From: Nitrososphaeraceae archaeon
GTDB lineage: Archaea; Thermoproteota; Nitrososphaeria; Nitrososphaerales; Nitrososphaeraceae
Assembly: GCA_022545895.1 (NCBI GenBank)
Contig: JAKEIK010000108.1
Location: 1 to 49,744 of the forward strand
Direction: 5' to 3'
Length of the DNA: 49,744 nucleotides
Of the stretch, positions 3,762 through 47,547 are shown in pieces (position 1 is the stretch's first letter; the number at the start of each line of letters is the position of its first letter). The position numbers and the translations under genes are program-made. The notes under the pieces are model-generated. The model saw only the letters and a list, made by a program, of their open reading frames with translations, was not told the DNA's origin and ran no database searches.

Positions 3762-5114
3762 TTATATGTTCGATCCGTTTACAAATCTGTTGTAAATAGA
3801 GAGTGCATCTTGTTGATCTTTTGCCCCAACTATTGTAGCAGCACCACTTGTCATAAAGCTTACAGATAACTGTTCTCGTTCTGACCCATTACTTATGGCC
3901 GTCAAACCAAGTTTGCCCCGAGTTTTTACTTTATACCCTAGCTGTTCTGCATTTCTTTCGACACCCAACAGGCTGAGAGGAGATGACACCTCAGATGGAG
4001 TAACTGTGTATGTTCTCTTGCCTCTGTCTCTACCACACAGTTCTTCAATCAAAAGCTGTTGACGCAGAACAGAATCTTCCAATTTTCTTTTTGATCCACA
4101 AGACGGGCATTCATCGTGTCGGTACATCTGAATTTTTTCCAAGCAGAGATCATTCAAATCAACATACAGCAACTTATTGACAAGTGTTGGATTTTCTCCC
4201 GTAATGATCTTTACCACTTCAGAGACCTGAATGCCTCCAACCAAGTACAATATGGATGGATGTACACCTTCCGTACTGCATGTTGGCATATCATCTTCTG
4301 CCAATGCTGGGAACATACACCTCAAGCATGCAGATTCATTTGGTATTATGGTACAGACCGATCCCAACATCCCTAGAGCACCAGCGTAAATCAGCGGAAT
4401 ATTTAGCTTAATACAAGCATCATTTAATGCATAACGTGCATCAATACTGTCAAGTGCATCCACAACGATATCGAAACCATCAATAATTTTCTCAGCATTA
4501 TATCTAGTAACTGAGATAGGAAGTGCCTCAATCTCTACACTTGGATTAATCTGTCTTAATCGTTCTCGAGCTGCCTCTACCTTTACTCGTCCTATATCGT
4601 CCTCAGTATAGAGATGCTGACGGTGAAGATTAGAAATCTCGACTACATCTCTGTCAACAATCTTAATTGTTCCAACACCCATTGCGGTAAGTTGAGTGAC
4701 GACCGGATTACCAATTCCTCCAACACCGACTACGCAGACCCTTGCCTTCCGAATTTTTTCCATTCCAACAAATCCGATTTCGTCGAGCATTATTTGCCTC
4801 GAATATCGCTGTAAATCTTCAGTTTTGAGTTCTGAACCGCCGGCTACTGCTGGAAGAATGTAGATTGAATCATTTTCGTGAAGAACGGTAGCCATACCAT
4901 CACTGCTAAATCGCATATTCTTCCCATTGATGTAGATGTTAATTAGAGATCGAGGTTGTCCGTTTAAATCTAATACTCTTCGCTTAAAATCTTCACCCAT
5001 TTGGTCCGAAATCTTTGTGAAGGCATCTTCAAGATTTGTTGCTTCCAGCGGGATCTTTTTCTCTCCAGCGCCTTTTGTCAGTACTGAAGGAATTACAAAT
5101 TCAATTTTTGCCAA
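3762..5114 (-). CDS. moeB: MoaD/ThiS-like domain fused to MoeB/ThiF E1-like adenylyltransferase
   Basis: Residues 1-93 are a beta-grasp MoaD/ThiS-like domain ending ILPAVAGG (GG at 92-93), where a free sulfur carrier would end. From 100 an E1-like domain follows: RYSRQIMLDEIG, nucleotide loop GVGGIG (130-135), zinc cysteines C263/C266 and C336/C339, and a candidate catalytic C279 in MPTCSTEG. Residues about 345-450 are an extra domain. Such enzymes adenylate a carrier's C-terminal glycine for sulfur transfer in molybdopterin, thiamine or tRNA thiolation, or in ubiquitin-like conjugation. Here the tail is not free, so the fused domain may be structural or cleaved. The start is TTG after the SD GGTGA, 32 bp behind thrC, so probably co-transcribed. 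Confidence 0.88.
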   Translation of the reverse strand: MAKIEFVIPSVLTKGAGEKKIPLEATNLEDAFTKISDQMGEDFKRRVLDLNGQPRSLINIYINGKNMRFSSDGMATVLHENDSIYILPAVAGGSELKTEDLQRYSRQIMLDEIGFVGMEKIRKARVCVVGVGGIGNPVVTQLTAMGVGTIKIVDRDVVEISNLHRQHLYTEDDIGRVKVEAARERLRQINPSVEIEALPISVTRYNAEKIIDGFDIVVDALDSIDARYALNDACIKLNIPLIYAGALGMLGSVCTIIPNESACLRCMFPALAEDDMPTCSTEGVHPSILYLVGGIQVSEVVKIITGENPTLVNKLLYVDLNDLCLEKIQMYRHDECPSCGSKRKLEDSVLRQQLLIEELCGRDRGKRTYTVTPSEVSSPLSLLGVERNAEQLGYKVKTRGKLGLTAISNGSEREQLSVSFMTSGAATIVGAKDQQDALSIYNRFVNGSNI

Positions 5115-5146
5115 TCTCTGTCACCACATATGATGCATGTCAATAA

Positions 5147-6373
5147 CTATGTAATCATTGCCGAGACCAACTGAATGTCTGGTTTTACGACATTGAGCTT
5201 CGGGAGTTTATCTGCTATTGCTTCTGGACTCTTTAATCCGTTGCCGGTAACGTAGCAAACTACTTTTTCATCTCGTTCTATGGTCCCATCTTCGACTAAC
5301 TTTTTAAGTACGGCCACTGAAACACCGCCTGCTGGCTCCGTAAAGATCCCCTCCGTTCTAGCAAGCATCAAAATTCCATCTACTATTTCAGCATCTGTGG
5401 CTTCTTCAGCTACACCCCTGTACTGCTTCAATCTTCTCAATACATACATACCATCCCCTGGATCGCCTATCGCTAAACTTTTAGCTATTGTCTCTGGTCT
5501 TTCAATAGGCACAATATCAGAATCGTGTCTTTTAAAAGCATTAACTATTGGAGCACAGCCATGAGGTTGTGCCGCAGTAATGCGCAAGTTAGAGATGTCC
5601 TCTACAAAACCAAATTCATGTAGCTCCTCAAATCCCTTACAGATAGCATTTAACATAGCTCCGCTTCCTACGGGGATTATCAAATGATCCGGAACTTGCC
5701 AGTTGAGTTGTTCTGCCACTTCGAAAGCAAGTGTTTTTGAACCTTCGACGTAGTATGGCCGCATATTAATATTTACAATTCCGATACCCTTTGAATCCCC
5801 AATTATTGAGGCTACCCTGTTTGCGTCATCATAAGTTCCTTGTACTGCAACAAACTCCGCACCATATGCTAGAGCTTGTGATATCTTAGGGCTCTCAATA
5901 TCAGAGGGAGCAAAAATATAACAAGGCAAACGAGCCTTTGCAGCGTGAGCTGCAGTTGCAGAAGCTAGATTGCCGGTGGATGCACATCCTACTGCTCTTA
6001 ATTTAGTTTCTTTTGCCCTAGAAACAGCCACACCTGCTGGTCTATCCTTAAATGAAAATGTTGGATTGACTGAGTCATTTTTGATGAATAAATTCTTCAG
6101 TCCGCCAATTTGCTTGCCAAGTTCGTCTGCCTCTTGCAGGGGTGTAAAGCCTGCATGAAGATTGATGATGTTATTCTTATTAGAAATAGGCAAGAGTTCG
6201 AAATAACGCCAATACGACTTCTCCTGCCTAGATGAAAAAACTTCCTTATTCAAATCAGAAGGAAAATTGTATATAACATCAAGAGGCCCAAAACACTCTT
6301 CACATATGTATCTAAATTGTGGTTCGTACTCTGCAGAACATTCTCTGCACTTTAAAGATTGGATTACTCCCAT
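5147..6373 (-). CDS. thrC: Threonine synthase
   Basis: A PLP enzyme converting O-phosphohomoserine to threonine. PTFSFKDRPAG carries the PLP lysine K109. GCASTGNLASATAAHAAKA is the phosphate-binding loop region, and VTGNGLKSPEA lies near the C-terminus. An N-terminal zinc ribbon (C9, C12, C24, C27) is typical of the archaeal form. The length of 408 is normal. It is first in a two-gene unit with the MoaD-MoeB fusion. TTATTTATC, about 30 bp before the ATG, is a plausible TATA box. asd in this window supplies the same aspartate-family pathway. Confidence 0.93.
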   Translation of the reverse strand: MGVIQSLKCRECSAEYEPQFRYICEECFGPLDVIYNFPSDLNKEVFSSRQEKSYWRYFELLPISNKNNIINLHAGFTPLQEADELGKQIGGLKNLFIKNDSVNPTFSFKDRPAGVAVSRAKETKLRAVGCASTGNLASATAAHAAKARLPCYIFAPSDIESPKISQALAYGAEFVAVQGTYDDANRVASIIGDSKGIGIVNINMRPYYVEGSKTLAFEVAEQLNWQVPDHLIIPVGSGAMLNAICKGFEELHEFGFVEDISNLRITAAQPHGCAPIVNAFKRHDSDIVPIERPETIAKSLAIGDPGDGMYVLRRLKQYRGVAEEATDAEIVDGILMLARTEGIFTEPAGGVSVAVLKKLVEDGTIERDEKVVCYVTGNGLKSPEAIADKLPKLNVVKPDIQLVSAMIT

Positions 6374-35548: not shown

Positions 35549-36154
35549 ATGTTTACAGGAATAATAAAAGGAACAGGAACAATAAAGTCCATAACGGGGT
35601 CTAAAAGAACTAGTAGTTCAGATAGGCGTATCAGACTTGAATTGGGAAGTGTGGGAAAAGGTCTTAAGATTGGTGATAGCGTAAGCGTTAATGGTACGTG
35701 TCTAACCGTAATCATCTTGAAGAAAACTGCTGCAGAATTTGAAATTGTCAAAGAGACAATGGATAGGACAACATTGGGATCCCTCAAGGATGGAGATTCT
35801 GTGAATATAGAGAGAAGTTTAAAGCTGAGCGATAGGTTAGAAGGACATATCGTCTTAGGGCACGTGGACGGAATCGGAGAAATTTCTGATGTAATTAAAT
35901 ATCCAGCTGAAATAAAGATGTGGATAAGGGTCAAAGGCAAAGAACTGATGAAATATTTAGTTCCTAAAGGGTCCGTCACGGTAGACGGAATAAGCCTTAC
36001 TGTAGTCGATGTCGGAAAATATAAATTCTCTGTAGCTTTGGTGCCTCATACAGTTTCAAAAACTACGATAGGAACCAAAGTCAGCGGAGACACAGTTAAC
36101 CTAGAATTCGATATACTAAGTAAATACCTAGCCAATCTTATACCAAAAAATTAG
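35549..36154 (+). CDS. ribE: Riboflavin synthase, bacterial (alpha-chain) type
   Basis: It dismutates two 6,7-dimethyl-8-ribityllumazines into riboflavin plus the pyrimidine precursor. Two lumazine-binding repeats are clear. The first begins MFTGIIKGTGTIKSI with VNGTCLTVI; the second begins LEGHIVLGHVDGIGEI with VDGISLTVVDV. At 201 residues this is the bacterial/eukaryotic trimer-forming enzyme, not the RibC of methanogens, which is related to lumazine synthase. The ATG start is the family's MFTGI. It is first in the operon, with ribB 54 bp downstream. A transfer origin from bacteria is likely in the family's history. Confidence 0.95.
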   Translation: MFTGIIKGTGTIKSITGSKRTSSSDRRIRLELGSVGKGLKIGDSVSVNGTCLTVIILKKTAAEFEIVKETMDRTTLGSLKDGDSVNIERSLKLSDRLEGHIVLGHVDGIGEISDVIKYPAEIKMWIRVKGKELMKYLVPKGSVTVDGISLTVVDVGKYKFSVALVPHTVSKTTIGTKVSGDTVNLEFDILSKYLANLIPKN

Positions 36155-36208: not shown

Positions 36209-36895
36209 GTGTCAAGACTAGACGACGCGGTTTATGCTTTGAGATCTGGAAGATTCATTATGATCCATGATGACGAGTCTAGAGAGGACGAAGTCGACTT
36301 GGTCATGGCCGCACAATTTGTAAGACCTAGAAGTGTCGCCGAAATGAGGAATATGGCAGGAGGTATGATATGCTTGGCAATTTCAAACGAAGCCGCAAGA
36401 ATATTAGGCTTAATGTATATGCATGAAATGCTGCGTCGTATATCGACTAATAATTTCACTCTTTCTAAAATAATATTTGGAATCACTCCATACGGAGATA
36501 AACCATCGTTTTCAATTTCTATAAATCATATAGATACCTATACTGGTATCACTGACACAGATAGAGCTCTTACTATTAGTGAGATGGCCAAAATATGCAC
36601 AGAAATGAATAATGACGGCAGAGATCAATTTGTCAGATACTTTCGTACTCCGGGGCATGTTCCATTGTTGATAGCGGCAAAAGGTTTGATACAGGAAAGG
36701 ATGGGACATACCGAATTGGGCGTATACTTAATGAAGTTGGCAAATTTAGTCCCTTCAGTAGTAATTTGCGAGATGTTAGATTCAGAGACATACAAGGCGC
36801 TAAACATACGGAAGGCAATGGAGATCTCAGTCAAGAGAGACATACCCATACTTCAAGCAAACGAAATTAAACAATATAATGGTTTGAAACGATAG
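36209..36895 (+). CDS. ribB: 3,4-dihydroxy-2-butanone 4-phosphate synthase
   Basis: It converts ribulose 5-phosphate into the four-carbon unit of lumazine. The metal/acid loop DDESREDEVDLVMAAQ is at 21-36. INHIDTYTGITDTDRALTI, FRTPGHVPLL and MGHTELGVYLMKLA are the other active-site segments. The 228 residues are the single-domain form without fused GTP cyclohydrolase II, consistent with the archaeal GTP cyclohydrolase III two genes downstream. The start is GTG. Its stop codon directly abuts the TTG of ribH. Confidence 0.96.
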   Translation: MSRLDDAVYALRSGRFIMIHDDESREDEVDLVMAAQFVRPRSVAEMRNMAGGMICLAISNEAARILGLMYMHEMLRRISTNNFTLSKIIFGITPYGDKPSFSISINHIDTYTGITDTDRALTISEMAKICTEMNNDGRDQFVRYFRTPGHVPLLIAAKGLIQERMGHTELGVYLMKLANLVPSVVICEMLDSETYKALNIRKAMEISVKRDIPILQANEIKQYNGLKR

Positions 36896-37363
36896 TTGGA
36901 CAAGACCAGGTTAGGCATTATTGTTGCAGAATTCAACAGTCGTATTACAATGGAAATGCTTGAAGTGGCGAAGGCTCATGCGGAATTAAGGAACGCAGCA
37001 ATCAGATACATTTGTTTCGTTCCAGGAACCTTTGATATGCCTCTACTAATAGAGGAGCTTATAAAGAAAAAAGACGTAGATGCTATAGTAACACTAGGTT
37101 GCGTCATAAAAGGTGAAACAGGGCACGACAGAATAGTTGCAAATACCGCTGCAAGGTTTATTGCTGAATTATCATTCAAATATCATAAACCTGTATCTCT
37201 TGGCATCTCAGGCCCTGATATGACCGTCCAGCAGGCGCGCAATAGAATTACAACTGTTTCCAAGAGAGCTGTAGATGCAGCAGTTAACATGGTTGACCGA
37301 TTAAGAAAATTAAGGGATATGGAAGAAGATGATGAAAAAATGGGAGTGATCATAATAGATTGA
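36896..37363 (+). CDS. ribH: 6,7-dimethyl-8-ribityllumazine synthase
   Basis: It condenses the ribityl-pyrimidine with the four-carbon phosphate. The Rossmann-like core has IIVAEFNSRIT (Phe for ring stacking), FVPGTFDMPLLIEELIKK, ALVTLGCVIKGET-like VTLGCVIKGETGHDRI with the conserved His, and KPVSLGISGPDMTVQQA. The 155 residues fit the icosahedral or pentameric enzyme. The TTG start abuts ribB, and the TGA overlaps the TTG of arfA by four bases, so translation is coupled. Confidence 0.95.
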   Translation: MDKTRLGIIVAEFNSRITMEMLEVAKAHAELRNAAIRYICFVPGTFDMPLLIEELIKKKDVDAIVTLGCVIKGETGHDRIVANTAARFIAELSFKYHKPVSLGISGPDMTVQQARNRITTVSKRAVDAAVNMVDRLRKLRDMEEDDEKMGVIIID

Positions 37364-38148
37364 GCATACAGATTTCCATTATTAAAATAGAAGGATATGG
37401 ACCGTGGACATTAGAGCTTGGAAGTGATAGAGAAGCTCAATTGCAGATGCTGCAAGCCAAACTGTATTACGACTTGCAAAAACTGTTCTCTGAAAAGGAT
37501 TGTCTCGTCTATCAGAACAGGCAGGATGAATTATTTGCTGTCACAAATGGACTTTCCGTGGAAGATCATTCTATTATCCTTTCATATATCTCAGGATCGT
37601 ATAGAGAAATTAATTTATCAATGGCCATAGGGATAGGTTCAACACCGCTGGATGCGAGTCTTAACGCATATTGTGCACGACGCCATAATAATCAACTTAG
37701 AACAGATGTACCTTTATATGGTAATCACACGTACTTACTGTCGTCTAGACACCAGAGTACAGTACGATCTGACATGATGGTCCAAATAATGCATATAGAC
37801 ATCGATGGTTCAACAAAGTTCAGCAACATGATTTCCCCATATGAAGTTAGTACTTTTATAATTAGGATTTTTTTAAGAATTGCGGATGAATTCGTAAATA
37901 AGAAATCCATGACTTTCTATTTAGGCGGTGATAACTTTATGATCGTATCAGATACAATTCCTTCAGAAGAGGTAAAATCAATTATAAGTAACATCTGTGA
38001 ACAATTGAAAGTGAAATTGAATTGCGGTATCGGCATAGCAAAAACCGCTAGGGAAGCCGCTGGTGCAGCAACAGGGGCATTGGATACAATTCGCAAGCTC
38101 CGCAAAGAAGGCATTATTCATCAAGTTTACGAGATCAGATGTCTCTAA
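37360..38148 (+). CDS. arfA: GTP cyclohydrolase III (ArfA)
   Basis: The archaeal first step of riboflavin (and F420 precursor) synthesis. It opens GTP to the formamidopyrimidine FAPy, leaving the formyl group for a separate deformylase. It has two tandem ferredoxin-like halves related to nucleotide cyclases: MSIQISIIKIEGYGPWTLEL, VYQNRQDELFAVTNGL, and in the second half IMHIDIDGSTKFSNMISPYE and YLGGDNFMIVSD. The 262 residues are typical. The TTG start overlaps ribH by four bases, and its end overlaps the amidohydrolase by ten. Confidence 0.94.
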   Translation: MSIQISIIKIEGYGPWTLELGSDREAQLQMLQAKLYYDLQKLFSEKDCLVYQNRQDELFAVTNGLSVEDHSIILSYISGSYREINLSMAIGIGSTPLDASLNAYCARRHNNQLRTDVPLYGNHTYLLSSRHQSTVRSDMMVQIMHIDIDGSTKFSNMISPYEVSTFIIRIFLRIADEFVNKKSMTFYLGGDNFMIVSDTIPSEEVKSIISNICEQLKVKLNCGIGIAKTAREAAGAATGALDTIRKLRKEGIIHQVYEIRCL

Positions 38149-39422
38149 TTATCAAGAACATAAGTCTATTACTAGAGAATGATCTCGAATTCATAAATAA
38201 TGGATATATAGTTATAGGAAAAGACGGTCTAATTAGCCACGCAGGACAAGGTGATTTTCGTAATACAAACAAGCATGATAAGGTATTTGATGGAGAAGGA
38301 TTATTGGCATGTCCAGGATTCGTAAACGCCCACACACATATCGGTGATTCCATTGGAAAGGATATAGCTATAGATATTGATTTGGATCTGGATCAAATGA
38401 TTCATCCATTACATGGGCTTAAGAAAAAAATTTTGGACAATAGCGACAGAGACCACCTTATCACATTCATTAAAAGCAGTGTTCGAGCAATGTTGAGGAG
38501 AGGAATTGTTGCTTTTGCAGATTTCAGAGAAGGTGGAAGTGAAGGAATCAAGTTGCTAAATGATGCTTTATTTGATACACCGATAAAATATGTAGCGTTA
38601 GGTCGTCCTGAATATTATTTCACTATCCACCCATCGAGTAATGGGGAAAAGGTGGATAGGTATCCGTACAAGAGTCCGAATGAAACGCTGTCCGCCAATT
38701 TTAACAAAACGTCTCATAAAATACTGGAGGTATGTGACGGTTTTGGCATCAGCGGTGCTAATGAAAATTCAGACGAGTCTCTGAACCAGTATAGAAAAGT
38801 AGCTCATGAGTATAGAGAGAAATCGAGAAGAAATATCATCGTGGCAATCCATGCAGCAGAGTCAGAACAGACTGTAACATTTTCAGTTTCTGCTACGGAG
38901 AAGAGTGAGGTTCAGAGAATTCTTCCAAATCTCATGCCTGATTTCATTGTCCATATGACCAATGCTTCTGACGAGGATATTGCCCGAGTAGCTGAGCAAG
39001 GAGTCGGGATAGTAGTATGCCCACGATCAAATGGGATATTAGGAGTGGGCTTTCCTAGAGTCGCAAAAATGTTACGATTAGGATGTCATGTTGGAATCGG
39101 TACAGACAATGTCATGATCAATTCACCAGACATGTTTAGAGAAATGGATTACCTATGGAAAGTGTCAAGATCAATAGACGATGAATTTCTTTCTGCAAGA
39201 GATGTATTGAAGATGGCAACAGTAAATGGAGGGAAAATACTTAAGATAAAATCAGGATCAATCGCCCCAAATATGTCTGCTGACATGATCTTTTTCAAAA
39301 AGGATCATATTGATCTTGCGCCTCTGCACAATCCGTATGCAGCGATAGTACATAGAGCAGACATGGATTCAATTCACAATGTTATGATTAATGGCAGGTT
39401 AATTGATGGAGAAGAATTCTAA
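38139..39422 (+). CDS. Amidohydrolase of the ATZ/TRZ deaminase group, candidate riboflavin-pathway deaminase
   Basis: The metal-dependent hydrolase fold is complete: HTH (H65, H67) in FVNAHTHIGDS, H238 and E241 in IHAAES, H272 in VHMTNASDED, and D323 in IGTDN. This set is typical of enzymes that deaminate heteroaromatic rings (guanine, cytosine, triazine, S-adenosylhomocysteine deaminases). The 427 residues include the split beta-sandwich. It overlaps arfA by ten bases and directly abuts arfC, so it is translated with two consecutive pathway enzymes. The step between ArfC and lumazine synthase needs a pyrimidine deaminase, for which I know of no assigned archaeal gene. That role is inferred; deformylase activity is the main alternative. 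Confidence 0.9.
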   Translation: MSLIIKNISLLLENDLEFINNGYIVIGKDGLISHAGQGDFRNTNKHDKVFDGEGLLACPGFVNAHTHIGDSIGKDIAIDIDLDLDQMIHPLHGLKKKILDNSDRDHLITFIKSSVRAMLRRGIVAFADFREGGSEGIKLLNDALFDTPIKYVALGRPEYYFTIHPSSNGEKVDRYPYKSPNETLSANFNKTSHKILEVCDGFGISGANENSDESLNQYRKVAHEYREKSRRNIIVAIHAAESEQTVTFSVSATEKSEVQRILPNLMPDFIVHMTNASDEDIARVAEQGVGIVVCPRSNGILGVGFPRVAKMLRLGCHVGIGTDNVMINSPDMFREMDYLWKVSRSIDDEFLSARDVLKMATVNGGKILKIKSGSIAPNMSADMIFFKKDHIDLAPLHNPYAAIVHRADMDSIHNVMINGRLIDGEEF

Positions 39423-40073
39423 TTGCATGTAATTCTCAACGCGGCGATGTCAGTGGATGGAAAAATAGCTACTAGAAGTGGAGATTCTTGCATTTCATCT
39501 ATTGTTGATCTTAAACGTGTTCACAGATTACGGACAACAGTGGATGCAATTATGATCGGGATACAAACTGTCCTAACTGATGATCCGATGTTGGATGTCA
39601 GATATGCCAAGACTAAAAAGAAGAATCCTGCGAGAATAATAATAGATTCCACTGCAAGAATATCGCTTCATTCGAGAATTCTGAAAACTGCTAACGAAAT
39701 CCAGACCGTTGTGGCAGTGACAAATAGAGCTTCAATCGCAAAAATCCACAAGATCGAAAGTACTGGCGCCCAGGTTCTTGTTACAGGAGAAAAGATAGTA
39801 AATATTCGCAGTGTATTTCGCCATTTGGAAAGATTGGGTTTTAACCGAATACTTGTTGAAGGTGGTGGGGAGATTAATTGGTCAGTACTGACCCTCGGAA
39901 TGATCGACGAGATGATTGTTATGGTTTCGTCAATCGTGATAGGAGGGAGAGATGCAAAAACGCTTGTAGAAGGCAAAGGTATTTCGGAGATATCTAGTAC
40001 AAAGAAAATGAAGCTTTCAAGAGTTCAAAGGCAGACCCTTAACGAAGTTGTCCTTTACTATCAATTATTTTGA
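39423..40073 (+). CDS. arfC: 2,5-diamino-6-ribosylamino-pyrimidinone 5'-phosphate reductase
   Basis: A RibD-C/Rib7-type reductase that turns the ribosyl into a ribityl chain with NAD(P)H. LNAAMSVDGKIATRSGD, VDAIMIGIQTVLTDDPMLDVR, NPARIIIDST and LVEGGGEINWSVL are the signatures of the reductase domain. The 216 residues lack a fused deaminase domain, as in archaea and fungi, so the deaminase must be a separate protein. The TTG abuts the stop of the amidohydrolase gene. It is the last gene of the operon, and its end overlaps the convergent tfe gene by 13 bases. Confidence 0.93.
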   Translation: MHVILNAAMSVDGKIATRSGDSCISSIVDLKRVHRLRTTVDAIMIGIQTVLTDDPMLDVRYAKTKKKNPARIIIDSTARISLHSRILKTANEIQTVVAVTNRASIAKIHKIESTGAQVLVTGEKIVNIRSVFRHLERLGFNRILVEGGGEINWSVLTLGMIDEMIVMVSSIVIGGRDAKTLVEGKGISEISSTKKMKLSRVQRQTLNEVVLYYQLF

Positions 40074-45571: not shown

Positions 45572-46309
45572 TTATCTTACATCGTCAAATGAAGTGTGAA
45601 GATCATTCCAACGATCATTTTGTAGACCCTTCCACTTTTCATAGTGTATTACATCCTTCAGAGCCATTCTCTCTAACCATCCAACATTCTCAAGATCAGG
45701 CTTGGCAGAAAATTCATTAACATATCCAAGACAGAGATATGCTACGGGCAGGACATGATCTGGTATCGAGAGAATCTTTTTAAGATCAGCGGTAGATAGA
45801 ATGCTAACCCATCCAACTCCTATTCCTTCGACCCTAGCTGCTAACCAAAGATTTTGAATTGCACAACAAACACTGTATACGCCAGTTTCGGGTACTGAAG
45901 TTCTTCCAAGTACGAATGGTCCAAATTTTGTAGGGTCATAAGTCACACATATATTGATAGCAGATTCTACTATCCCCTCTAGTTTTAGGCGAAGATATAA
46001 TTTCTGTCTCTCTTTATCTCCCTTTAGTAAAGAAATTGATTTCTCTCTCTCATTAATGAACGAATTTTTGACTAGAAGTCTATTTGCATAATCCTTGATT
46101 AAGATGAAATCCCATGGTTGAGAATAACCTACGGAAGGGGCATGGTGCGCGGCTCTTAATATTTGTGCTAAAATATAGTCTGGAATATCTCGATCGATAA
46201 AATTTGAGCGGACATCCCGCCGAGCGTATATAGCTTTATACAGACCCTGCCTTTCGCAATCCACAAAAGAGCTATCATAGGTGTCGTTCATTTGCATGTC
46301 ATAAATCAT
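45572..46309 (-). CDS. bluB: 5,6-dimethylbenzimidazole synthase (BluB)
   Basis: It breaks down reduced FMN with oxygen to make 5,6-dimethylbenzimidazole, the lower ligand of cobalamin. RRDVRSNF carries D32, the position of the essential Asp in Sinorhizobium BluB. AHHAPSVGYSQPWDFILI and YSVCCAIQNLWLAARVEGIG are followed by GVGWVSI with S169, near the catalytic Ser of that enzyme. The length of 245 is normal. General nitroreductases lack this combination. It is monocistronic with TATA-like ctaatatag about 20 bp upstream. It fits functionally with the cobalamin operon and the riboflavin operon in this window. Confidence 0.9.
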   Translation of the reverse strand: MIYDMQMNDTYDSSFVDCERQGLYKAIYARRDVRSNFIDRDIPDYILAQILRAAHHAPSVGYSQPWDFILIKDYANRLLVKNSFINEREKSISLLKGDKERQKLYLRLKLEGIVESAINICVTYDPTKFGPFVLGRTSVPETGVYSVCCAIQNLWLAARVEGIGVGWVSILSTADLKKILSIPDHVLPVAYLCLGYVNEFSAKPDLENVGWLERMALKDVIHYEKWKGLQNDRWNDLHTSFDDVR

Positions 46310-46761: not shown

Positions 46762-47547
46762 ATGACAAAAAATTCTTCATATTTTCTTGAGTCAATGAAT
46801 GCAATGCAGATAAGAAAAAAAGTAGATGAAAATACTGTTGCCGTGCTCGTTTTTGGTGCATGCGAGAATCATGGTGATCATATGCCATTTGGATCTGATT
46901 TCATTTTTCCTCTCGAGATTGCAGAAAGAGTAGCTAAAATGACAGAAAATGTCATAGTTTTACCGGCTGTGCCATATGGAGTAAGCTTACACCATAAAGG
47001 CTTTCAAATGACATTGAGTCTCCAATCTGATACATTAGTAAAAATCATTACTGATATTCTCAACAGTTTAATCTCTAATAATATAAATCGAATTCTAATA
47101 ATAAATGGCCATGACGGTAATATTGCTCCTATAGAGGATGCTGCTAGGTCAATAAAAGATATGCATCCAGAAGTCACAATTTGTTGCTTAGAGTCATGGT
47201 GGACATTGGTTGGACAGATAAGGAAGGATTTATTTGACATATGGAATGGATTAGGACACGGTGGAGAAGCGGAGACATCCGCAATGCTAGCAGTACGTCC
47301 TGACTTGGTCGATATGAATCTTGCACCTAGTGACACAATTCCTAAATTACCTACCAATGTGAGAATCTATTGGAATTTTGATGAACTTACACGTACAGGT
47401 ACTACTGGTTCTCCACGAAATGCTAGTATTGAAAAGGGCAAAGCGGTATTGGAAACGATTGAAAGTGTATTGCTCTCCCTCATGCAAGAAATGGATCAAA
47501 ATAATTGGAAATACGGAATAAATGTAAATCAAGATAAAACAAAGTGA
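46762..47547 (+). CDS. Creatininase-family amidohydrolase, candidate ArfB deformylase
   Basis: The metal site of the family is present: E35 and H37 in GACENHGDHMPFGSD (with H40 and D46), H117 in NGHDGN, and H166, E169 and E171 in GHGGEAETSAM. The 261 residues are usual. The archaeal FAPy deformylase ArfB (second riboflavin/F420 step) belongs to this family, as do creatininase and mycofactocin MftE. No ArfB candidate lies in the riboflavin operon at 35.5-40 kb, so this gene may supply it. That is inference. It has its own TATA box and terminator. Confidence 0.85.
   Translation: MTKNSSYFLESMNAMQIRKKVDENTVAVLVFGACENHGDHMPFGSDFIFPLEIAERVAKMTENVIVLPAVPYGVSLHHKGFQMTLSLQSDTLVKIITDILNSLISNNINRILIINGHDGNIAPIEDAARSIKDMHPEVTICCLESWWTLVGQIRKDLFDIWNGLGHGGEAETSAMLAVRPDLVDMNLAPSDTIPKLPTNVRIYWNFDELTRTGTTGSPRNASIEKGKAVLETIESVLLSLMQEMDQNNWKYGINVNQDKTK

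Follow-up and report, generated by a model that had tools for sequence, protein, structure and literature searches.

An amidohydrolase in the riboflavin operon of a Nitrososphaeraceae archaeon as candidate pyrimidine deaminase of archaeal flavin and F420 synthesis

The riboflavin operon of a Nitrososphaeraceae archaeon raises the question of which step of the pathway is served by an amidohydrolase gene lying inside it. The stretch concerned is the 49,744-nucleotide contig JAKEIK010000108.1 of assembly GCA_022545895.1 (the window, meaning that whole stretch), which is contig C74 of genome G000 (assembly 2.57 Mb, 93.9% complete). The amidohydrolase gene (38139-39422, + strand) is called here gene x, a name used also for its homologues, and its product protein x. 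The operon order is ribE-ribB-ribH-arfA-x-arfC, and the matches of the neighbours to curated models agree with the reading of the operon in the initial annotation, which had been made from the sequence alone and had proposed that gene x encodes the archaeal pyrimidine deaminase acting on the ArfC product. This proposal is supported by position, co-occurrence, tree, residues and fold, and remains that of a candidate. Judged by genomic context, protein x is very probably a metal-dependent deaminase of the amidohydrolase superfamily in the archaeal flavin/F420 pathway, which is by a wide margin the best explanation of the results. What was computed comprises the operon position, the co-occurrence, the membership of one clade, the fold and the clade-specific residues near strand ends; the substrate and the metal of protein x are what we infer.

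In the mechanism proposed, ArfA would open guanosine triphosphate (GTP) to a formylaminopyrimidine nucleotide, a creatininase-type enzyme in the ArfB role would take off formate, and ArfC would reduce the ribosyl to the ribityl chain. Protein x would then remove the 2-amino group of the pyrimidine by hydrolysis, a reaction of the isocytosine-to-uracil type that yields 5-amino-6-ribitylaminouracil 5'-phosphate, and dephosphorylation by some phosphatase would feed both riboflavin (RibH, RibE) and F420 (CofG/CofH). The features of the window to which the argument refers are the following.

35549..36154, + strand: ribE, bacterial-type riboflavin synthase (TIGR00187 211.5 bits, NF006767 220.9 bits)
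36209..36895, + strand: ribB (PF00926 179 bits, TIGR00506 195.9 bits)
36896..37363, + strand: ribH, lumazine synthase (TIGR00114 139.5 bits)
37360..38148, + strand: arfA, GTP cyclohydrolase III (PF05165 189.1 bits)
38139..39422, + strand: gene x, candidate 2,5-diamino-6-ribitylaminopyrimidinone 5'-phosphate deaminase, an amidohydrolase of NF005552 (from NF005552, position, tree, residues and fold)
38331..38339, + strand: H65-T66-H67, metal ligands by family, with D70 three residues beyond (H65, H67 and D70 invariant in alignment A2)
39105..39110, + strand: D323-N324, the N typical of the riboflavin/F420-linked clade (N324 in 66/66 clade members vs 2/19 paralogues)
39423..40073, + strand: arfC, pyrimidinone 5'-phosphate reductase (TIGR01508 197.4 bits, cutoff 186.45)
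46762..47547, + strand: creatininase-family protein, uncertain ArfB candidate outside the operon (PF02633 213.7 bits; NF033501 24.6 bits, cutoff 180)

The open reading frame (ORF) of gene x has an ATG start, 427 amino acids and a TAA stop at 39420-39422; it overlaps arfA by 10 bases (38139-38148), and the TTG start codon of arfC at 39423 follows its stop directly. These coordinates bear out the earlier description of an ATZ/TRZ-type amidohydrolase overlapping arfA by ten bases and abutting arfC. Protein x matches Amidohydro_1 (PF01979) at 1.4e-42 and NF005552/PRK07213 'chlorohydrolase' at 330.9 bits over residues 4-418 of 427 (cutoff 294), the latter being the only model above its curated cutoff among the matches listed (25 of 33 for NCBIfam). 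No RibD domain was found in protein x, either in Pfam (E <= 0.001) or among those listed matches. NF005552 is named chlorohydrolase, yet its members here occupy riboflavin/F420 loci.

Position and co-occurrence were compared in 61 genomes at the order level, the window genome and 60 relatives. Gene x (strong NF005552 matches) and arfC (matches to the ArfC portion of TIGR00326) are present together in 45/61 genomes and missing together from 16/61; the same operon lacking this gene, a case that the initial annotation had named as telling against its proposal, was sought, and arfC without gene x occurs in 0/61. GTP cyclohydrolase III also marks 45/61 genomes, without G041, in which gene x starts about 320 bases from the contig end (arfA was missed there), and with G028 (87% complete), in which the contig stops about 80 bases past arfA. 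RibH is absent in 15 of the 16 genomes without gene x and arfC, the remaining one being G028. The arfC gene lies within 150 bp downstream of gene x in 43/45 genomes (1131 and 1648 bp in the other two). Gene x and arfA share a contig in 44 genomes, and in 43/44 of these arfA stands upstream at a distance of 150 bp or less, the remaining distance being 174 bp. The place between arfA and arfC, proposed earlier as a check, is thus kept in nearly all of these genomes of Nitrososphaeria. Among the named loci (the best 80 of 576 confirmed), arfA is upstream of gene x in 78/80 and arfC downstream in 77/80, and all six operon genes stand in the window order in 56/80; the exceptions are L076 (neither arfA nor arfC) and L109 and L093 (contig ends), and arfC was not found at L047. 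Given these frequencies and the joint occurrence of gene x and arfC, the arrangement is not due to chance. As to single relatives, none of arfA, gene x, arfC and ribH was found in G034, a genome of the window's family (one contig, 2.5 Mb, 99% complete), and its genus mates G022 and G029 carry arfA, gene x and arfC; G034 has apparently lost riboflavin synthesis.

At the level of the phylum, 299 Thermoproteota genomes, each at least 90% complete, were compared. NF005552 at E <= 1e-20 marks 170/299 of them, a count that overstates the family because paralogues are mixed in, and RibH at E <= 1e-18 is found in 133/299. A member of the clade described below was assigned to 127 of the 133 RibH genomes (65 of the window's order, 15 of family f24 and 47 others), by score and family only in most f32 genomes and a few others; the RibH genomes outside the 127 are G133, G333 (unverified), G095, G207, G222 and G343. 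Among 42 mutually related genomes, a clade member found with the broader profile A3 (E <= 1e-40) occurs in 19/20 with RibH vs 0/22 without (best 1.2e-29, in G248), and the sole RibH genome without one is G028, the contig-end case; owing to the relatedness, the Fisher value for this contrast is an overstatement. A TIGR00326 match alone was rejected as a marker of the pathway, 21 of these 22 RibH-negative genomes having one at E <= 1e-10; the part of TIGR00326 matched was not displayed for G070, G078, G177 and G267, and G305 has a full RibD. Family f24 was likewise considered as a counterexample, with 15/15 arfC genomes lacking an NF005552 match at E <= 1e-20, and was rejected as such: profile A3 finds a clade member in 15/15 (E 1.1e-61 to 2.6e-70), with the quartet D70, K95, E131 and N324 complete in 15/15, and in G252 the gene adjoins ribH. 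To judge by the traits of their genomes, f24 may be Thermoproteaceae and f32 Sulfolobales.

In distant lineages the linkage of clade members takes several forms: ribB-ribC-ribH-arfA-x (L171, L172), ribB-ribC-ribH-x (L245), arfC-arfA-ribB-ribC-ribH-x (L177, and L169 likewise on the opposite strand), arfA-x (L180), arfA-x-arfC (L034) and pairs of x-arfC or arfC-x (L165, L166, L167, L175, L176). In many further f32 genomes arfC is far from gene x. The label RibC was given by TIGR01506 for L172 and L049 and elsewhere by size and place. The riboflavin synthase itself varies, the bacterial-type RibE of the window operon being found also in L048 and L190, and the archaeal RibC (TIGR01506) lying between ribB and ribH in L049 and L172; within the lineage, one type seems to have replaced the other.

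Gene clusters for F420 place the step more closely. In G155 (95% complete; L178) and G075 (98% complete; L179), x-arfC-cofG-cofH share a strand, CofG and CofH scoring above their cutoffs, and RibH was not found in either genome; in G167 and G173 (L165, L176), both with RibH, arfC-x faces cofH-cofG. The curated name of CofH is 5-amino-6-(D-ribitylamino)uracil--L-tyrosine 4-hydroxyphenyl transferase, and since by that name it uses 5-amino-6-(D-ribitylamino)uracil, the x-arfC pair falls in the segment that riboflavin and F420 synthesis have in common; the position of gene x and arfC directly before cofG-cofH without RibH thus puts their step at or before the riboflavin/F420 branch. Two reactions, a deamination and a dephosphorylation, lead from the ArfC product to 5-amino-6-(D-ribitylamino)uracil (PMC12542839, excerpt), and a deaminase-type amidohydrolase fits the former. 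It is likely, at a somewhat lower confidence than for the window protein, that the clade with D70/K95/E131/N324 is a dedicated riboflavin/F420-branch deaminase across Thermoproteota and probably Euryarchaeota, non-homologous to RibD/Rib2, and that the F420-only x-arfC-cofG-cofH clusters are what is kept after riboflavin loss. Directly before gene x in the F420-type cluster of L178 there is a DUF447 protein (4905-5546) with a weak flavin-reductase likeness.

The clade was delimited in a tree of 57 proteins (quick method, support by the Shimodaira-Hasegawa-like approximate likelihood ratio test, SH-aLRT), in which a linked clade of 41 separates from 16 paralogues with SH-aLRT 100. It contains every tree protein found beside rib or cof genes, the neighbourhoods of the paralogues lying outside the comparison; two very long rows, L180 and L184, are in it, and the rows nearest to the window protein are from Nitrososphaeria/Nitrososphaeraceae. 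L198, L199 and L206 were considered as paralogues and rejected as such, the tree placing them inside the linked clade.

Aminohydrolases of the amidohydrolase superfamily are defined by an HxH, HxxE, H, D set. The corresponding H65, H67, H238, E241, H272 and D323, already pointed out in the initial annotation, are present in protein x and invariant in alignment A2 (41 sequences, the window's included), and the set is complete in 66/66 clade members of a residue count covering 66 clade members and 19 paralogues, L219 and L222 being left out of it because they repeat L198 and L199. D70, K95, E131 and N324 occur jointly in 66/66 clade members vs 0/19 paralogues, among which K95 singly is found in 5, E131 in 4 and N324 in 2. 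R296 is present in 63/66 clade members vs 0/19 paralogues, R406 in 60/66 vs 0/19 and R156 in 41/66 vs 2/19. Because tree and profile had decided the membership, this contrast is descriptive and is no independent test. K95, R296 and R406 may contact the phosphate or the ribityl chain, and D70, E131 and N324 may take part in recognition of the pyrimidine or the chain.

The predicted model of protein x has a predicted local distance difference test score (pLDDT) of 91.5 and a predicted template modelling score (pTM) of 0.92, the loop near 161-180 not being confident. With the metal-ligand residues and the barrel fold of the model, protein x belongs to the amidohydrolase superfamily. Active sites of this fold lie just past the core strands; in the secondary structure of the model, E131, R156, R296 and N324 stand directly after core strands, and K95 and R406 on helices. 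The best 14 structural matches (VIA-align) have Z 38.8-41.6 and a root-mean-square deviation of 2.3-3.0 over 370-393 aligned residues, and include adenosine deaminases, TM0936, the isocytosine deaminase Vcz, guanine deaminases and amidohydrolases without a named substrate. Rows up to 1 Z apart count as tied, and fold alone is no proof of function; triazine hydrolases and imidazolonepropionases are non-deaminase matches of the same fold. Vcz (8is4, 7ww2) and the 8-oxoguanine deaminases have the fold in common with protein x at Z 40.0-40.2 and 21% identity. Vcz converts isocytosine to uracil, a ring change equal to that proposed for protein x, while the metal Asp is followed by Gly in isocytosine/8-oxoguanine deaminases (PMC6186785, excerpt) and by Asn in protein x.

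The N-terminal domain of RibD and the fungal Rib2 have the cytidine deaminase fold. Their deaminase takes off the pyrimidine 2-amino group (PMC12542839, excerpt), as is proposed for protein x, which by contrast is an amidohydrolase and thus of a different superfamily. RibD (TIGR00326) exceeds its curated cutoff in 0/61 order-level genomes and in 1/299 of the phylum, the lone full RibD being G305:C21:379471-380496 (L164; 382.8 bits). NF005552 matches nothing in G305 at E <= 1e-20, the broader profile gives a match of 5.5e-5 only, and RibH was not found there; in this one genome of 299, gene x was thus not found where the RibD deaminase domain exists, as the initial annotation had anticipated. 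Six genus mates of G305 carry the reductase part of TIGR00326 only, and RibH was not found in them. A RibD-type deaminase elsewhere in the window genome, another case named beforehand as adverse, was also sought: the only TIGR00326 match at E <= 0.001 is arfC, the fungal Rib2 not having been searched for.

Of the other explanations, the one that survives best is that protein x deaminates the ribosyl compound before ArfC acts, as in the bacterial order, or the dephosphorylated form. The order of steps is not fixed by gene position, and gene x precedes arfC in the operon; however, bacterial RibD deaminates and then reduces, and the archaeal order is the reverse, with reduction first (PMC12542839, excerpt), and the arfC of the window is a stand-alone gene above the cutoff of the archaeal-type TIGR01508. 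We therefore consider this order improbable.

Less probable still is that protein x is the deformylase, in the ArfB role, acting on the formamide of the ArfA product, with the deaminase elsewhere. The deformylase step likewise has no gene in the window operon, a point missing from the account of the initial annotation, and gene x, which directly follows arfA, might therefore have been the deformylase. The window genome has two creatininase genes (one at 46762-47547 of the window, the other on contig C53) and a fragment, and neither reaches the cutoff of 180 of the ArfB model NF033501 (24.6 and 40.1 bits), which was rejected as decider of ArfB in this genome; the same model gives 34-48 bits to the creatininases beside arfA or arfC in L048, L049, L050 and L155. 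In a survey of 57 chosen genomes (46 holders of gene x and 11 non-holders), creatininase-family matches were found in 5/11 non-holders and 45/46 holders, the exception being G033, which has gene x and no creatininase match. The presence of such proteins in nearly all holders speaks against a deformylase, as do their positions: the candidate deformylase gene is usually separate, but it directly follows arfC in L048 and L049, in one gene run with arfA and gene x, and also in L050, although there arfC and gene x are separated by two reverse ORFs, and it adjoins arfA in L154 and L155. The best structural matches of protein x are, moreover, mostly deaminases. The ArfB/BrbF deformylases share the pathway with protein x (PMC9478397, excerpt), but PF02633, the creatininase domain of ArfB, has no match in protein x at E <= 0.001.

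That protein x is a deaminase of the methylthioadenosine (MTA)/S-adenosylhomocysteine (SAH)/5'-deoxyadenosine or guanine type merely sharing the operon is hardly credible: the adenosine/MTA/SAH deaminases (4dyk, 4gbd, 4f0r, and TM0936, which we take to be an SAH deaminase) are its nearest solved folds, among the top Z (40.1-41.6), and in the window genome Amidohydro_1 otherwise matches only urease alpha and a dihydropyrimidinase-like protein, but protein x falls far under the curated cutoffs (NF005557 104.2 of 522 bits, NF012037 80.7 of 779 bits, and the guanine and 8-oxoguanine deaminase models of NCBIfam), the archaeal paralogues form a separate clade without the D70/K95/E131/N324 set, and gene x is missing where the pathway is missing. 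The SAH/MTA activity that the initial annotation had named as adverse to its proposal is thus disfavoured by tree and residue pattern.

Several observations weigh against a deaminase dedicated to this pathway. Gene position alone does not separate deamination from other steps before the branch, and G033, as said, holds gene x without a creatininase match. R296, R406 and R156 are not invariant, which weakens the claim of a fixed phosphate site. At L076 (5983-7197), in a metagenome-assembled genome labelled Euryarchaeota, gene x is split into two ORFs, and none of the other rib genes of the window was found at that locus. In the RibH-positive G095, G207, G222 and G343 no gene x was found by NF005552 at 1e-20, the sole profile used, and they are not in the ArfC list either. 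At least four gene x holders (G075, G155, G149, G344) are without RibH found, so that gene x is not strictly a riboflavin gene. A study describing a bacterial deformylase attributes the steps that come after it to RibD, also in archaea (PMC9478397, excerpt).

The idea of such a deaminase is very probably not new in kind, its family carrying a printed prediction. Three gaps in haloarchaeal riboflavin synthesis are listed, Rodionova et al. 2017 being the source of candidates for two of them; Table 6 gives HVO_1235 as arfB candidate, EC 3.1.3.104 (phosphatase) as a gap, and HVO_2483 (34% to MJ0699) as predicted in riboflavin synthesis with the step not stated (PMC8305020, excerpt). With arfB and the phosphatase so accounted for, HVO_2483/MJ0699 is the deaminase candidate by elimination, and the 2017 prediction thus apparently concerned the deaminase step. 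Among 14 named control genomes, NF005552 matches at E <= 1e-70 occur in M. jannaschii, H. volcanii and M. acetivorans, two of them above its cutoff, and one at E <= 1e-20 in Sulfolobus acidocaldarius; the matches of H. volcanii and M. jannaschii were not tied to the individual ORFs HVO_2483/MJ0699, and NF005552 is very likely the family of both. Compared with that prediction, gene x is here fixed inside a riboflavin operon. Searches of the open literature for MJ0699, HVO_2483 and phrases for an archaeal riboflavin/pyrimidine deaminase returned PMC8305020 only, no literature on Thaumarchaeota with a missing deaminase was found, and no experimental proof of an archaeal deaminase was recognised in a wider search, mostly without full texts. 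To the earlier statement that no archaeal gene is established, the prediction in print has to be added (PMC8305020, excerpt).

Beside the operon, a gene for BluB, the 5,6-dimethylbenzimidazole synthase, lies at 45572-46309 on the - strand (TIGR02476 228.3 bits, cutoff 150); some 5.5 kb separate it from the riboflavin operon, and a creatininase gene adjoins it. BluB consumes flavin mononucleotide.

The deaminase is, by elimination, one of the three gaps listed for haloarchaeal riboflavin synthesis (PMC8305020, excerpt), and the present comparison adds that gene x keeps a fixed place in the operon in Nitrososphaeria and follows the pathway across the sampled Thermoproteota, f24 included; it also adds the F420-only clusters, a separation of protein x from the deformylase, and a quartet of residues for testing and annotation. 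The quartet provides an annotation test, and the F420-only clusters a second route to test the step. If the assignment is true, an entire clade could be renamed, one step of an essential pathway would be carried out by two unrelated folds, and the flavins and F420 of ammonia-oxidising and thermophilic archaea would depend on a family whose NCBIfam name is 'chlorohydrolase'.

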